This document shows positions 6,851 to 30,651 of a DNA stretch of 33,523 bases, one piece after another. The DNA comes from Terriglobales bacterium. Lineage in GTDB: Bacteria; Acidobacteriota; Terriglobia; Terriglobales; Acidobacteriaceae. The notes below the pieces were generated by a model, which had not been told where the DNA came from, did no database searches, and saw only the letters and a list, made by a program, of their open reading frames with translations. The translations under genes were made by a program, and so were the position numbers. Every line of letters begins with the position of its first letter. Position 1 is the first letter of the stretch. Location: NCBI GenBank assembly GCA_035457425.1, contig DATIBR010000143.1, positions 1-33,523 of the forward strand, given 5' to 3'.

Positions 6851-7570
6851 TCATGGCTTCGCGAATATCTCCGCGTCGGAGCGCCGAATGTAGTTGGCGT
6901 CGAGCTGCTCGACCGTGACCGTCTCGCCGCGCGCCAGCTTCCCCGCCCCGATGCGCGCGACGTCCGCGGCACTTGGACGCGGCACCGCCGTCCACTGCAC
7001 GCCGACCTCGCTCAGCAGCCGCGAGACGCTCCCGTCCGAGGTCACGACCGGCAGCGCCGGCTTCGACTCCCCGCGCAGGTGCGCGATGAAGTCCGCCTGC
7101 GAGAGCAGCTCCTCCCGCAGCGTCCTCCCCCGCCCGTCGGCGACCTCGTATTCCCCGAAGAACACTTCCTGCCGCTGCGCGTCGAGCGCGGTCGCCACTC
7201 TCTTCGGCAGGGACGGCCTTCTGGCCGTCTCTGGAGACGCGGATAACGGCGTCGCTACTGTTGAACCCGAGAGCGCCAGCGCCTCGAGCACGGACACCAC
7301 CGCGATCGGCTTGCCGAGTATCTCCGCCAGGCCCTTGACCGCGGCCAGCCCGACGCGCAGCCCGGTGAACGAGCCCGGGCCGCTCGCGACCGCGAATCCG
7401 CCGACGTCTTCTTTCTTCAGCTTGTGTTTCGCCAGCAGCTCGGCGACCTGCGGGATGAGCTGCGCGGAGAACGTCCCGCCCGCGATGGGCGCCGCCTCCA
7501 GCAGCGCGCCCTCGCGCCACAGCGCGATGCCGCCCTGCTTCCCGCTCGTGTCTATGCCGAGAATAAGCAA
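6851..7570 (-). CDS. tsaB: tRNA t6A37 threonylcarbamoyltransferase subunit TsaB
   Basis: This protein of about 239 residues has the ASKHA fold. TsaB binds TsaD and is needed for N6-threonylcarbamoyl adenosine at position 37 of ANN-decoding tRNAs. It starts LLILGIDTSGKQGGIAL and contains the signature ASGPGSFTGLRVGLAAVKGLAE, then ALDAQRQEVFFGEYE. The start used is TTG at 7568-7570, which puts the first strand at the terminus as usual. A GTG at 7595-7597 would add nine residues encoded by repeat sequence. Between SVLEALALSG and ALDAQRQ there is an extra stretch, SASPETARRPSLPKR, encoded by a palindromic repeat (see 7210-7240). It lies between mce and rimI. Confidence 0.9.
   Translation of the reverse strand: MLILGIDTSGKQGGIALWREGALLEAAPIAGGTFSAQLIPQVAELLAKHKLKKEDVGGFAVASGPGSFTGLRVGLAAVKGLAEILGKPIAVVSVLEALALSGSTVATPLSASPETARRPSLPKRVATALDAQRQEVFFGEYEVADGRGRTLREELLSQADFIAHLRGESKPALPVVTSDGSVSRLLSEVGVQWTAVPRPSAADVARIGAGKLARGETVTVEQLDANYIRRSDAEIFAKP
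7210..7240. repeat. palindromic repeat inside tsaB
   Basis: GGGACGGCC, loop TTCT, GGCCGTCTC (7210-7231) is followed by GAGACGC at 7234-7240. The reverse complement matches the second hairpin and part of the first hairpin of the intergenic element at 21577-21621. It stays in frame in tsaB and encodes an extra loop. Confidence 0.75.
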
Positions 7571-7655
7571 AAAGTCCAACGCAGAGACGCCGAGCACGCG
7601 GAGGATTCAAGGAAGAAGTACCTGCTCGGCGTCCTCTGCGCCTCGGCGTTAGATT
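7571..7655. repeat. inverted degenerate 7-9 base repeats between mce and tsaB
   Basis: The left part reads AACGCAG, AGACGCCG, AGCACGCGG (about 7579-7602). The right part reads CTCGGCG, TCCTCTGCG, CCTCGGCG, TT (about 7624-7650). Reverse-complementing the right part gives AACGCCGAGGCGCAGAGGACG, a match to the left with one inserted unit. It begins within about 10 bases of the mce stop and reaches the tsaB start. Confidence 0.65.
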
Positions 7656-12760: not shown

Positions 12761-12845
12761 GCTCCCCCCACACTGTCATCCCGAGCGAAGCGCGAGTCCG
12801 CCGCGGTCCGCCGCGGACGAGCGCGAGTCGAGGGACCACGCCTTG
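12761..12845 (+). repeat. TGTCATCCCGAGCGAAG repeat, copy 1
   Basis: This runs GCTCCCCC..CACTGTCATCCCGAGCG, then GC-rich CCGCCGCGGTCCGCCGCGG, and ends GAGGGACCACGCCTTG. It is a direct repeat of copy 2 (12885-12965) and inverted to copy 3 (13266-13320). The 248-base gap between ltaE and the GIY-YIG gene holds these two copies and a short spacer, no gene. Confidence 0.85.
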
Positions 12846-21564: not shown

Positions 21565-21576
21565 AGATCAATGGTA

Positions 21577-21621
21577 GAGACGCCCTTTTGGGCGTCTCGG
21601 AGACGGCCAGAAGGCCGTCTC
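21577..21621. repeat. twin perfect hairpins after lpxB
   Basis: GAGACGCCC-TTTT-GGGCGTCTC (21577-21598) and GAGACGGCC-AGAA-GGCCGTCTC (21600-21621) are two perfect 9-base stems with 4-base loops. The same element, in reverse orientation and partly truncated, sits within tsaB at 7210-7240. No T-tract follows, so it is not a typical terminator. Confidence 0.85.
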
Positions 21622-21712
21622 TATCCGGCAGTCAGGTACTCTGAAAGCACCCATTCGGCCCCGGTACTCATCCAATCTTAAAGTCCGCAGCAATTCTGGA
21701 GCATTTCTCAAC

Positions 21713-25356: not shown

Positions 25357-25390
25357 CAACTCGCAACTCACAACTCGCAACTCGCAACTA
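25357..25390 (-). repeat. heptanucleotide array at a permease stop codon
   Basis: CAACTC[G/A] four times (25357-25384), then CAACTAC, in which CTA is the permease stop (TAG, minus strand). Reading minus: GAG-TAG-TTGCGAG-TTGCGAG-TTGTGAG. Confidence 0.85.
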
Positions 25391-26629
25391 CTCGTACCGC
25401 AGCGCCTCGATCGGGCTCAGGCGCGCGGCCTTGATGGCCGGCAGCATCCCGCTCACGATCCCCACGAAGATCAGGATCCCGGTCGCGACCATCAGGTTGG
25501 CCGGGTCGATGATCAGCCGGATGTCGCCCGCCTCCGCGTTCTTCGCCAGCGCGGAATACAGCGTCAGCCGCCCCACGCCCAGCGACACTATGTACGCCAG
25601 CACGATCCCCGCCAGCCCGCCGGCAAAGCTGATGGCCAGCGCTTCCGCCAGGAACTGCAGCAGGATCGACCGCCGCCGCGCGCCCAGCGCCTTCAGCGTC
25701 CCGATCTCCCGCGTCCGCTGCTGCACCGACACCAGCATGATGTTCATCAGGCCCACGCCGCCGATCCCCAGCGTCAGCGTCCCGATGAACGCCAGCAGGA
25801 CCTGCAGCCCCATCGTGATCACGCGGAACTGCGACAGCCGCTCCAGCGAGTTGAACACGAACACCGCGCGCCGGTCGTCTTCGCGGAAGTTGTGCGCCTG
25901 CCCCAGCGTCGCGCGCACCATGTGCTCCACCTTCTGGTAGTCGAGCCCTTCGTAGTCCAGCCAGATCCCGTCGAGATACTGCGTGTTGTCCAGGTCGCCC
26001 ATTGAGGTGAAGGGCACGTAGATGACCCGGTTGATGTTGTCGTCGCCCTCCTGCATCTTCGGCTCCAGCACGCCGATCACCTGGAAGCTCAACCCGTCCA
26101 GCCGGATGTACTCGCCCACCGCGTACTTCCCGCTGAACAGCTTGGTCTTAGCCTCCGACCCGATCACCGCCACCCGCCCGCGCTGGATGTAATCCTCTTC
26201 GTTGAAGAACCGCCCCATCTCCGGCCGCAGCTTCCGGATGTCGATCATCCCGGTGTTGACCCCCGAGACCGGCAGCGGATAGCTGCGGTTCTCGTAGGCC
26301 ACGTTCGCGCGCTTCCCCACCTCGGGCGACACGTGCTTGATCATCGGCACCGCGTTCACCAGCCGGTCGATGTCGTCGTAGGTGAAACGCACCTGCACGC
26401 CGGCCTTCGCGCCGCCGGCCTGCTTCGAGGTGCGTCCCGGGAACACGCCCAGCACCTTCGATCCGAACGATTCGAAGATGTTGGTGATGGCGACGCCGAA
26501 CCCCGCGCCATAGGCCAGCAGCAGGATCACGGTCGCGATGCCCCACGCCATCCCCAGCATCGTGAGCGTGGCGCGCCGGCGGTCGTGCTGCATCGCGCCG
26601 TAGGCTTCCCGGAGCAGGTCGCGCATCAT
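25388..26629 (-). CDS. MacB-type ABC transporter permease (pair B, second)
   Basis: This 413-residue permease has the MacB layout: an N-terminal membrane helix (GMAWGIATVILLLAYGAG), a large periplasmic domain with GRTSKQAGGAKAG, and three C-terminal helices with GIGGVGLMNIMLVSVQQRTREIG and a final EALRYE. FtsX-like families export peptides or act in cell-envelope work; a separate ATPase is needed. The stop TAG lies in a heptad array. The ATG overlaps the preceding permease TGA by 4 bases, so the two are translated as a unit. It closely resembles the product of 27981-29225. Confidence 0.92.
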   Translation of the reverse strand: MMRDLLREAYGAMQHDRRRATLTMLGMAWGIATVILLLAYGAGFGVAITNIFESFGSKVLGVFPGRTSKQAGGAKAGVQVRFTYDDIDRLVNAVPMIKHVSPEVGKRANVAYENRSYPLPVSGVNTGMIDIRKLRPEMGRFFNEEDYIQRGRVAVIGSEAKTKLFSGKYAVGEYIRLDGLSFQVIGVLEPKMQEGDDNINRVIYVPFTSMGDLDNTQYLDGIWLDYEGLDYQKVEHMVRATLGQAHNFREDDRRAVFVFNSLERLSQFRVITMGLQVLLAFIGTLTLGIGGVGLMNIMLVSVQQRTREIGTLKALGARRRSILLQFLAEALAISFAGGLAGIVLAYIVSLGVGRLTLYSALAKNAEAGDIRLIIDPANLMVATGILIFVGIVSGMLPAIKAARLSPIEALRYE

Positions 26630-27879
26630 GCTTCGTGCCTCAGCGCTTCCACCGGCGGCAGCGCCGCGGCTTTGCGCGCCGGGTAGACGCCCGCCACGAT
26701 CCCCGCCAGCGACAGCGATGCGATGGCCAGCGTCGCGCTTGACGCCACCAGCGTCGGCGGGTCGAACCCAGGCGGCGACGGCAGCTTGCTCAGCGCCGCC
26801 ATCAGCCCGGCGGCCGCTCCCATGCCCACCCCGCCCGACACGATCGTCAGGATCACGCCCTCCAGCAGGAACTGCGTCATGATGTTCCGGTTCGTCGCCC
26901 CCAGCGCCTTGCGCAATCCGATCTCTTTCGTCCGCTCCGCCACCGACACCAGCATGATGTTGATGATGCCGATCGCTCCCAGCGCCAGCGTCACCAGCCC
27001 CACGCTCCCCAGGAACATGTTCATCGCGTCGAAGATCTTCCCCACCATCTCCTGGCTCTTCACCGTGTCCCAGTCCTCGAACGCGTCTTCATTCTTGGGG
27101 TCGAAGCCGTGGTTGCGCGCCACCACGGTGCGCGCTTCCTGCCGCGCCTGCTCGTGGTCCTCCGCCCGCGTCGGCGTGTAGTTCACGAACGAGATCGCCC
27201 CCGGCGCGTTGGTCGCGTCCTTCACCGGGAAGTACGTCGCCATGGTCGAGAACGGGATGAAGCACCGCACGCTCGACGAGTTCCCTTCGTCCTTGGTGAA
27301 GTTCGAGATGAACCCGATCACCTCGAACCGCAGCCCGCCGATGAGCAGGAACTTCCCGATCGGGTTCGGGTCGTCCGGGAACAGGTTCTTCTTCATCTCC
27401 CAGCCGATGACGGTGACCTGCCGCCGCTGCTCCTCGTCGAGCTCGTTCAGCCACCGCCCTTTCGCCAGCGGCAGGAAGCGGATCTGCTTGAACACCGGCA
27501 GCACGCCCGCCACCTGGCCGTTCGAGTTCTGCGTCTCGCTCACCACCCGGATGTCCTGCCGCACCAGCACCGGCGACGCGTACTTCACGTGCGGCTGCCG
27601 CCCGATCTCCATCGCGTCCTCGGAGGTGATCCAGTAGCGCCGCATGCCCGTCGCCTGCCCCTGCACCGCCGGGATGCGCCCGTTGAACATGAACATGATG
27701 TTCTCGCCGATCTCGGCGAGCTCCCGCTTGTTCCCGCTGCGGAACCCTTCTCCCACCCCCACCAGCAGCAGCAGCGATCCCACACCCCACGCGATCCCGA
27801 ACATGGTCAGGAAGGAGCGCAGCTTGTGCGCCCACAGCGTGCGGAAGGTCTGCGCGAGAATGTCCCAGAGCGTGCGCAT
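26626..27879 (-). CDS. MacB-type ABC transporter permease (pair B, first)
   Basis: This 417-residue permease starts MRTLWDILAQTFRTLWAHKL and has the N-terminal helix TMFGIAWGVGSLLLLVGVGEGF, a periplasmic domain with IMFMFNGRIPAVQG, and C-terminal helices with IGIINIMLVSVAERTKEIGLRKALGAT. The end PPVEALRHEA is typical. The two members of each pair are different from each other but like those of the other pair, so each pair probably forms a heterodimer. No ATPase gene accompanies them in the window. The substrate cannot be read. Confidence 0.92.
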   Translation of the reverse strand: MRTLWDILAQTFRTLWAHKLRSFLTMFGIAWGVGSLLLLVGVGEGFRSGNKRELAEIGENIMFMFNGRIPAVQGQATGMRRYWITSEDAMEIGRQPHVKYASPVLVRQDIRVVSETQNSNGQVAGVLPVFKQIRFLPLAKGRWLNELDEEQRRQVTVIGWEMKKNLFPDDPNPIGKFLLIGGLRFEVIGFISNFTKDEGNSSSVRCFIPFSTMATYFPVKDATNAPGAISFVNYTPTRAEDHEQARQEARTVVARNHGFDPKNEDAFEDWDTVKSQEMVGKIFDAMNMFLGSVGLVTLALGAIGIINIMLVSVAERTKEIGLRKALGATNRNIMTQFLLEGVILTIVSGGVGMGAAAGLMAALSKLPSPPGFDPPTLVASSATLAIASLSLAGIVAGVYPARKAAALPPVEALRHEA

Positions 27880-27922
27880 GTTTGGCGGAGCTTCTACTTT
27901 AGCAGGAAAGGTACCGGGCTCT

Positions 27923-27983
27923 GAGTCCCGAGTCCCGAGTCAGGATCGGCCGCTCGCAACTCGCGACTCGAGACTCGGAACTA
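27923..27983. repeat. inverted heptanucleotide arrays between the permease pairs
   Basis: The left array is GAGTCCC, GAGTCCC, GAGTCAG (27923-27943). The right array is GCAACTC, GCGACTC, GAGACTC, GGAACTA (27956-27983). In the last unit CTA is the permease stop. The halves are inverted. Confidence 0.85.
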
Positions 27984-29225
27984 CTCGTAGCGCAGCGCTT
28001 CGATCGGGTCCAGCCGCGCGGCCTTGATCGCCGGCAGCATCCCGCTCACGATCCCCACCAACCCCAGGATGATGGTCGAGACCACCAGCGACATCGGCGA
28101 GATCAGCAGCCGGATGTCGCCCGCCTCCGCGTTCTTCGCGATCGCGCTGTACAGCGTCAGCGTCCCCACGCCGAACGAAACCAGGTACGCCAGCAGGATG
28201 CCCAGCACGCCGCCCAGCGCCGTGATGGTGAGCGCCTCCGCCAGGAACTGCACCAGGATGGACCGCCGCCGCGCGCCCAGCGCTTTCAGCGTCCCGATCT
28301 CCCGCGTCCGCTGCTGCACCGACACCAGCATGATGTTCATCAGCCCCACCCCGCCGATCCCCAGCGTCAGCGTCCCGATGAACGCCAGCAGGATCTTCAA
28401 CCCCGCCGTGATGATGTGGAACTGCGTCAGGTCCTTCAGGATGTTGGCCACGAAGATGGCGCGCTTGTCCGTCGGATTGAAGCTGTGCGCCTGCCCCAGC
28501 ACGGTCCGGATCTGCGTCTCCACCTTCTCGTACTCCATGCCTTCGTAGTCGATCCAGATCCCGTCCACGTACTCCGTGTTCCGCAGGTCGCTCATCGTCG
28601 TGTACGGGATGTACACCTGCGTGTTGATGTCGTCGTTGTTCCCTTCCTGCATCTTCGGCTTCATCACGCCGACCACCTCGAAGCTCAGCCCGTCGATGCG
28701 CACGGACTCGCCCAGCGGATACACGCCGCTGAACAGCTTGGTCTTCGCGTCCGACCCCAGCACCACCACGCGCGCCCGCTGGTTCACCTCTTCCTGGTTG
28801 AAGAAGCGCCCGGAATCCACCGTGAAGTTCCGGATCTGCTGGAACGGCGGCCCCACCGCCGCCACCGACCATTCATAGTTGCGCGAATCGCGCGCGATCT
28901 TCCCCTGCTTCCAGTACGCCGGCGAGATCCGCTTGATCAGCGCCACGTTCGTCCGCAGCCGGTCGATGTCTTCCATCTTGAAGCGGATCTGCTGCCCCGC
29001 CTTCGCCCCGCCTGCCTGCAGCGACGTCCGCCCCGGGAACACCCCGATCAGCTTCGTCCCAAAGTTCGAGAAGATGGCCTCGATCGCGCGCTCGAATCCC
29101 GACCCGTAGGCCAGCAGCAGCACCACCGTCGCGATGCCCCACGCCATTCCCAGCATGGTCAGCGCGGTGCGCCGCCGGTTGAACTTCATCGCGTCGATGG
29201 ATTCGGTGAGCAGATCGCGCAGCAT
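27981..29225 (-). CDS. MacB-type ABC transporter permease (pair A, second)
   Basis: This 414-residue permease is a close relative of that at 25388-26629, sharing TMLGMAWGIATV, GRTSLQAGGAKAG, LGIGGVGLMNIMLVSVQQRTREIG and IEALRYE. The N-terminal helix, periplasmic core and three C-terminal helices are complete. AGGAGG five bases before the ATG marks the start, and the previous gene ends 9 bases away. It is presumably the duplicated counterpart of pair B's second gene. Stop codon is in a heptad array. Confidence 0.92.
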   Translation of the reverse strand: MLRDLLTESIDAMKFNRRRTALTMLGMAWGIATVVLLLAYGSGFERAIEAIFSNFGTKLIGVFPGRTSLQAGGAKAGQQIRFKMEDIDRLRTNVALIKRISPAYWKQGKIARDSRNYEWSVAAVGPPFQQIRNFTVDSGRFFNQEEVNQRARVVVLGSDAKTKLFSGVYPLGESVRIDGLSFEVVGVMKPKMQEGNNDDINTQVYIPYTTMSDLRNTEYVDGIWIDYEGMEYEKVETQIRTVLGQAHSFNPTDKRAIFVANILKDLTQFHIITAGLKILLAFIGTLTLGIGGVGLMNIMLVSVQQRTREIGTLKALGARRRSILVQFLAEALTITALGGVLGILLAYLVSFGVGTLTLYSAIAKNAEAGDIRLLISPMSLVVSTIILGLVGIVSGMLPAIKAARLDPIEALRYE

Positions 29226-29234
29226 GGCTTCCTC

Positions 29235-30485
29235 CTACTCCTGTCGCAGTGCCTCGACCGGCGTCAGCAGCGCGGCCTTCCGCGCCGGATACAGCCCGGC
29301 GACCACGCCGGCGACCGACAGCGAGATCAGCGCCAGCGCCGCCGAGGACGGCACCAGTGTCGGCGGATCGAATCCCGGAGGCGCCGGCAGCGTCCCCAGC
29401 GCGGCCATGATCGCCCACGCCAGGAAGATCCCGATCCCTCCGCTCAAGGTCGTCAGGAACGCGCCCTCGATGAAGAACTGCGTCAGGATGCTGCGGTTCG
29501 TCGCCCCCAGCGCCTTGCGCAGCCCGATCTCCTTCGTCCGCTCCGTCACCGCCACCAGCATGATGTTGATCACGCCGATCGCCCCCAGCACCAGCGTGAT
29601 CAGCCCCACGCTCCCCAGGAACTTGTTCATCGCGTCGAAGATCTTCCCGATCGTCTCCACGCTGTCGGCCGTGTCCCAGTCGAACCAGTAGTCGTCTTCG
29701 TCGGGGTCGATGCCCCCGCCGTGGTTCTGCCCCACCAGCACGCGCACTTCGCGCCGCGCCGCCGCGTGATCGTTCACGTCCTTCGGCTGGAAGTTGAGGT
29801 AGGTGATCGAGTCCGGCTTCTCCGCGTCCTTCAGCGGAAAGTGCTCCCGCATGATGTTGAACGGGATGAACGCGCGCATGTCGGTCGCGCTCGACTCGCC
29901 TCGCATCTTCTTCACTGTCCCGATCACGGTGAAGCGATACCCGTTCAGCAGGATGGTCTGCCCCAGCGCCGGCGCGCCCTTGAACAGGTTCTTGTACAGC
30001 TCATTGCCCAGCACCACCACGTAGTGGTGGTCGTCGTCGTCGGCTTCGTTGATCCAGCGCCCGCTGTCGATCGGCATGTAGCGGATGCGGTCATAGTTCG
30101 CCGTCACTCCGAACACCTGGCCGTTGGTGCTCTCGCTCTCGTAGATCACCTTGATGTCGCCCCGGTTCAGCACCGGCGAGATCTCGCCCACCGTCTTGGC
30201 ATGGTTCTTGATCGTCAGGTAGTCCTGGTAGGTCGGTTGGTAGGTCCGGCTCGCGGTGTGGCTGCCCTCCGCCGCCGGGATGCGCCCGCCGAAGAAGAAC
30301 ATGATGTTCTCCCCGATCTGCGCCAGTTGCTTCTTGTTGCCCGTGCGGAAGCCCTCGCCCAGCCCCACCAGCAGCAGCAGCGAGAACACTCCCCACGCGA
30401 TCCCGAACATGGTGAGGAACGAGCGCAGCTTGTGCGCCCACAGGGTGCGAAGCGTCTGCCCGAAGATGTCCAATAGCGCGCGCAT
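29235..30485 (-). CDS. MacB-type ABC transporter permease (pair A, first)
   Basis: This 416-residue permease starts MRALLDIFGQTLRTLWAHKL and shares TMFGIAWGVFSLLLLVGLGEGF, IMFFFGGRIPAAEG and the C-terminal IGVINIMLVAVTERTKEIGLRKALGAT with the first gene of pair B. It is first in the four-gene run. The 166 bases before it hold an inverted CCGGCACGCCCGGCGGGCACG hairpin but no convincing promoter. Duplication of a two-gene unit (27981-30485 and 25388-27879) explains the run. Confidence 0.92.
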   Translation of the reverse strand: MRALLDIFGQTLRTLWAHKLRSFLTMFGIAWGVFSLLLLVGLGEGFRTGNKKQLAQIGENIMFFFGGRIPAAEGSHTASRTYQPTYQDYLTIKNHAKTVGEISPVLNRGDIKVIYESESTNGQVFGVTANYDRIRYMPIDSGRWINEADDDDHHYVVVLGNELYKNLFKGAPALGQTILLNGYRFTVIGTVKKMRGESSATDMRAFIPFNIMREHFPLKDAEKPDSITYLNFQPKDVNDHAAARREVRVLVGQNHGGGIDPDEDDYWFDWDTADSVETIGKIFDAMNKFLGSVGLITLVLGAIGVINIMLVAVTERTKEIGLRKALGATNRSILTQFFIEGAFLTTLSGGIGIFLAWAIMAALGTLPAPPGFDPPTLVPSSAALALISLSVAGVVAGLYPARKAALLTPVEALRQE

Positions 30486-30651
30486 GCCTGCCTACAGATA
30501 CGGACGGTACCTGCCCCCGGTTCCTTCTTAGACCGGAGAAAGAGAGGAAGGTAACGGTCTTTTTTCCGGCACGCCCGGCGGGCACGCCGGGGCTTACAGC
30601 AGGCGCGGCCCGGTTGCGCGTTCCGCCCTTCGATTCAGCCACTTACGGGTA

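Follow-up and report, generated by a model that had tools for sequence, protein, structure and literature searches.

The tsaB gene of a Terriglobales bacterium contains a palindromic DNA element within its reading frame, and we asked what this element is, how it came to lie there and what it means for the TsaB protein. The gene was analysed within a stretch of 33,523 nucleotides (the window), together with the rest of the same genome (the own genome) and the genome of the sister species, which was the sole other species of the same genus compared. Both genomes are draft MAGs and incomplete (96% and 90% complete).

Structure of the tsaB element

The features of the window that bear on the element are the following.

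6851 to 7597, minus strand: tsaB ORF, 248 aa as listed, TIGR03725 T6A_YeaZ equivalog
About 7204 to 7260, minus strand: inserted segment in tsaB, placed by an alignment of 30 TsaB, a codon view against the sister and an alignment with MAG TsaB
7207 to 7231, plus strand: tsaB REP A, GCAGGGACGGCCTTCTGGCCGTCTC, perfect core hairpin, outward tag
7234 to 7258, minus strand: tsaB REP B, GTAGCGACGCCGTTATCCGCGTCTC, opposite orientation, outward tag, decayed inner stem
21573 to 21626, plus strand: head-to-head REP dimer downstream of lpxB, the second composite copy in the window, seen by pattern, dimer score and fold

The hairpin GACGGCC-TTCT-GGCCGTC was found in perfect form at 7212-7229 in tsaB, and GACGGCC-AGAA-GGCCGTC, equally perfect, at 21602-21619 after lpxB. 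The original prediction that the two sites share a hairpin was borne out: the 18 bases are identical, and nowhere else does the window contain a match free of mismatches. One and the same element lies on opposite strands at the two sites, which explains why the tsaB copy had been described as lying in reverse. The piece of a neighbouring hairpin that had been noticed beside it is present, but it is actually a complete second REP that occupies 7234-7258 and has partly decayed. The span of 7210-7240 first given for the element was too short, and the pair runs from 7207 to 7258.

The tsaB composite is an inverted REP pair of 52 bp, with a spacer of two bases between REP A and REP B. REP A carries the tag GCAG and shows 2 mismatches against GTAGAGACG..CGTCTC, while REP B carries the tag GTAG and shows 1 mismatch against the search pattern, with 5 of its 25 positions changed. 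The palindrome is in frame, as had been claimed, and contributes the peptide SASPETARRPSLPKR to TsaB, whose ORF is read from the minus strand. The ends of the insertion are approximate, because the nearest empty site has a protein identity of just 67%. The layout of the REP pair after lpxB is that of the tsaB pair, and in scoring against the dimer consensus the lpxB copy reached 45 and the tsaB copy 33, compared with 16 for the best position elsewhere in the window.

The REP family and its distribution

The consensus of the family is GGTA-GAGACGsCC-TTCT-GGsCGTCTC, with compensating changes in the stem. The REP has a stem of 9 bp and the loop TTCT. Copies occur either singly, as many of them do, or as outward-facing dimers; head-to-head dimers were found in tsaB, after lpxB and at about ten more loci, with a spacing within the dimer of 0-3 nt or about 15 nt.

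The own genome (3.1 Mb) gave 45 matches to the 22-mer core with up to 3 mismatches, a count in which a few near-palindromic copies were scored on both strands, and the reversed control gave 0. The pattern including 5' GGTA matched 38 times in the own genome and 32 times in the sister (reversed control 0), with no match in 59 other genomes from the family, order and class. With a looser pattern, two-strand matches rose to 70 and 59, respectively, against 5 and 8 in the controls. Among 399 genomes sampled across the class, sister excluded, three had matches and only the own genome had many; the other two, both from the same family, had one diverged match each. A census of pattern-fetched loci, which misses decayed copies, comprised 70 REP sites (37 own and 33 sister). 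A chance palindrome was ruled out by the genome-wide counts against the reversed controls. As far as searched, the REP family is confined to one acidobacterial genus.

The tsaB element is a GTAG-tagged REP dimer, a REPIN/BIME-like unit. Its copies are dispersed above chance, a GTAG (or GYAG/GTRG) tag stands at the 5' foot of a stem within the 6-13 bp range that is closed by a short loop, and some copies form dimers with their tags outside (HH).

TsaB and its inserted loop

The tsaB ORF scored 134.6 bits against TIGR03725 (cut-off 69.3) and was the only TsaB match in the own genome, where the gene is single and intact. Its real start is probably nearer 7570, because another dispersed repeat encodes the first ~9 residues as listed. 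An AlphaFold2 model of the protein showed the TsaB fold with a mean pLDDT of 75.9, and its best structural matches in the PDB were YeaZ/TsaB (E 1.6e-16). Both the profile score and the fold identify the protein as TsaB.

Alignment with 29 relatives placed the insert between the helix end LEALALSG and the strand VATALDA. The net gain is 17 in-frame residues (51 bp, against 52 bp for the REP pair) relative to the sister, whose TsaB is 67% identical and is without them, and to most relatives. The 17 residues were also absent from the TsaB of eight MAGs found by name, one of which has a loop longer by 4 residues. An alignment with TsaB from relatives had been proposed as the check for a lineage-limited insertion, and among the 30 TsaB aligned the extra loop was limited to the own species. 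The contrary outcome named at the time, the same loop encoded by unrelated DNA in most TsaB, was not what the alignment showed. Four relatives (L036, L037, L038, and L057) have longer loops at the same site that are unrelated to the insert, and the site is therefore naturally permissive. In the AlphaFold2 model, pLDDT was 52-56 over the insert and 86-89 over its flanks, so that the insert is probably a disordered loop.

REP copies in other genes

In-frame REP copies were found in about a dozen genes across the genus, and not in tsaB alone, a spread that was absent from the original prediction. These copies were called from ORFs, codon-position GC on both sides and Pfam/NCBIfam matches, and not from annotation. 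In the own genome they lie in TsaB, MtaB, NadB, ApbE, a family-4 uracil-DNA glycosylase (UDG4), an AlaX-like protein and a spermidine-synthase-like membrane protein, the last of which matched nothing in Pfam or NCBIfam and was named by eye. In the sister they lie in PheT, SMC, XerC/D, LarC, an ankyrin protein and the glycosylase, AlaX-like and spermidine-synthase-like proteins, the sites in these last three genes being common to both species. Within the AlaX-like gene the REP takes the same position in each species (L019 1501-1525, L109 1482-1506) but in opposite orientations; an inversion or two independent insertions are possible.

MtaB with its REP scored 414 bits against TIGR01579, above the cut-off, and NadB, whose copy is a REP dimer, scored above the cut-off of TIGR00551. 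PheT of the sister has 17 residues that are missing from the own species and from the other aligned relatives. PheT and TsaB are the clean cases of a net insert. The REP peptide is missing from relatives of NadB and MtaB as well, but loop length differs among these relatives, and for this reason the net insert lengths in these two proteins are unclean. Five of the six REP reading frames are open, and the in-gene copies use four frames (GRDGLLAVS, VETxxxPS, GDGQKAVST, and ETARRPSLP); the TAG-stop frame and the RRPEGRLY frame were unused in this small sample.

TsaB and MtaB act successively on the same t6A37 nucleotide. It is very unlikely that in-gene copies are biased to tRNA-related enzymes (TsaB, MtaB, PheT, and the AlaX-like editing protein) because these have some property or role in common, as opposed to insertion at random that was tolerated; the presence of these enzymes among about a dozen genes may be coincidence. 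According to the text of a 2013 survey, tRNA enzymes are also among the genes listed with intragenic GTAG REPs (PMC3733652).

Mobilisation

The accepted view is that RAYT/TnpAREP nucleases move REPs in single-stranded form. For the RAYT enzymes that have been tested, recognition depends on the GTAG tag and the stem, and cleavage falls at CT, in one case also at CA (PMC8266576). Several Y1-transposase genes are present in each of the two species, and two proteins of the own genome (L031 and L032) pass the RAYT model NF047646. The REP was absent within 1-1.5 kb of all nine Y1-transposase loci scanned. L031 and L032 lie between long terminal inverted repeats that are not GTAG REPs, and in this they resemble the TIR-flanked transposases reported for Koribacter in the text of PMC3733652. 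A RAYT flanked by the same REP, the usual but optional arrangement of a REPtron, was not seen at the nine loci of these incomplete MAGs. We only infer that a RAYT mobilised the tsaB REP, because no scanned Y1 locus has a REP nearby and the own RAYTs sit in other repeats.

The flanks of single REPs were compared for target-site duplication. In the own genome they matched no better than permuted pairs (p 0.20-0.66). The flanks in the sister matched weakly, with p = 0.008 and p = 0.014 in two of three overlapping ranges, these being among six uncorrected post hoc tests. At single REPs of the sister (for example L116, L112, and L119), the 12-14 nt before the REP are partly repeated 5-45 nt after it, which is a possible flank duplication on insertion.

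Origin and consequences of the tsaB insertion

The account that we hold to be very probable is that a dimer of this genus-confined GTAG REP entered tsaB by a REP-type move after the split from the sister species, and is tolerated in a loop of a normal TsaB. The move would have been a single-strand mobilisation, most likely by a RAYT/TnpAREP HUH nuclease. The copy would have landed in the loop between helix 103-114 and strand 132-141, whose length already varied among relatives, and would have survived there because its length fits the frame, it contains no stop codon, it encodes mainly small or polar residues and the loop is variable. The insert appears to be near-neutral, and TsaB most likely retains its normal role in t6A synthesis.

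We consider it very unlikely that the copy was selected for a regulatory RNA or DNA role in tsaB, such as an mRNA hairpin or a protein-binding site. Roles of this kind have been assigned to REPs elsewhere (PMC6006769, and the text of PMC3733652), and the coding strand of the tsaB copy folds more strongly than its shuffles (-28.2 kcal/mol, z -3.0). However, the intergenic lpxB copy folds more strongly still (-39.2 kcal/mol, z -6.4), the second arm is decayed at the five positions given above, and the genes that bear REPs are functionally varied. The decayed arm and the weaker RNA fold fit a passenger under coding, not hairpin, constraint.

A new property conferred on TsaB by the insert, for example altered contacts with TsaD or TsaE, is highly improbable, as the loop is predicted to be disordered and similar peptides occur in unrelated proteins in several frames. 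An ancestral TsaB-specific loop, palindromic by chance and unrelated to the lpxB element, has next to no probability and was ruled out by the TsaB alignments: although the length of the site varies without REPs, as in the four relatives with longer unrelated loops, the residues are missing in the sister and most relatives, and the tsaB DNA fits the dispersed family over the 52 bp of the composite, at either end of which a GTAG-like tag faces outward.

Comparison with known systems

The text of Di Nocera et al. (2013, PMC3733652) describes GTAG REPs as having a GTAG tag, stems of 6-13 bp, short loops and a preference for head-to-head dimers. The present family is like them, as far as that text goes, in its tag, short perfect stem, short loop and head-to-head dimers, and in being mostly intergenic with a minority of copies in genes, including those of DNA-repair and tRNA enzymes. 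It is unlike them in that the stem here takes in the final G of the tag as a paired base and that a REP-flanked RAYT was not found at the nine loci. Acidobacteria (Koribacter and others) appear in the same text only as holders of TIR-flanked transposases and not of a GTAG REP family. The REP family is new, and the lineage is new for intragenic GTAG REPs as far as the text of PMC3733652 shows.

As in the REPINs of Pseudomonas (Bertels and Rainey, 2011, PMC3116915), the dispersed unit is an inverted REP pair, but here the spacing is 0-3 or about 15 nt, many copies are single and a cognate RAYT cluster was not found. The likeness to Rickettsia palindromic elements (RPE) that had been suggested holds as an analogy, in that both are in-frame palindromes in many protein genes to which they add peptides. 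The phylum and the tag are different, and the two were likened by description. The true relatives are the intragenic GTAG REPs known since 2013, which the text of PMC3733652 describes in several species and phyla, including in-frame cases; the comparison with Rickettsia is drawn there too, with RPE-4 and RPE-6 placed among the CGTC-tagged repeats. For RAYT genes of subclass 2.4, in-frame REPs were reported in 2018 (PMC6006769); the insertion likewise preserves the frame there but only in the transposase gene itself.

Significance and other repeats in the window

These results bring to light, in Acidobacteriota, a genus-level REP family with protein-coding copies, in which the two species permit filled and empty sites to be compared gene by gene. 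The genes for TsaB and PheT are essential in other bacteria. The copies offer a natural experiment for learning which core-enzyme loops can accept an inserted peptide and how REPs move, and they call for caution, since short lineage-specific protein insertions may be mobile DNA.

Two other dispersed repeats were seen in the window. The first, AACGCAGAGNCGCNGAGNACGC, forms an inverted pair at the tsaB start (7578-7650) and matched 34 times in the own genome and 12 times in the sister, against 0 for the reversed pattern. The third dispersed repeat of the window, CTGTCATCCCGAGCGAAGC, has copies at 12773, 12896, and 13301, and the own genome and the sister gave 22 and 12 matches to it, respectively. 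Four related ORFs of about 415 aa follow one another on the minus strand at 25388-30486; with 60-87% DNA likeness over long stretches, they look like duplicated permease genes.
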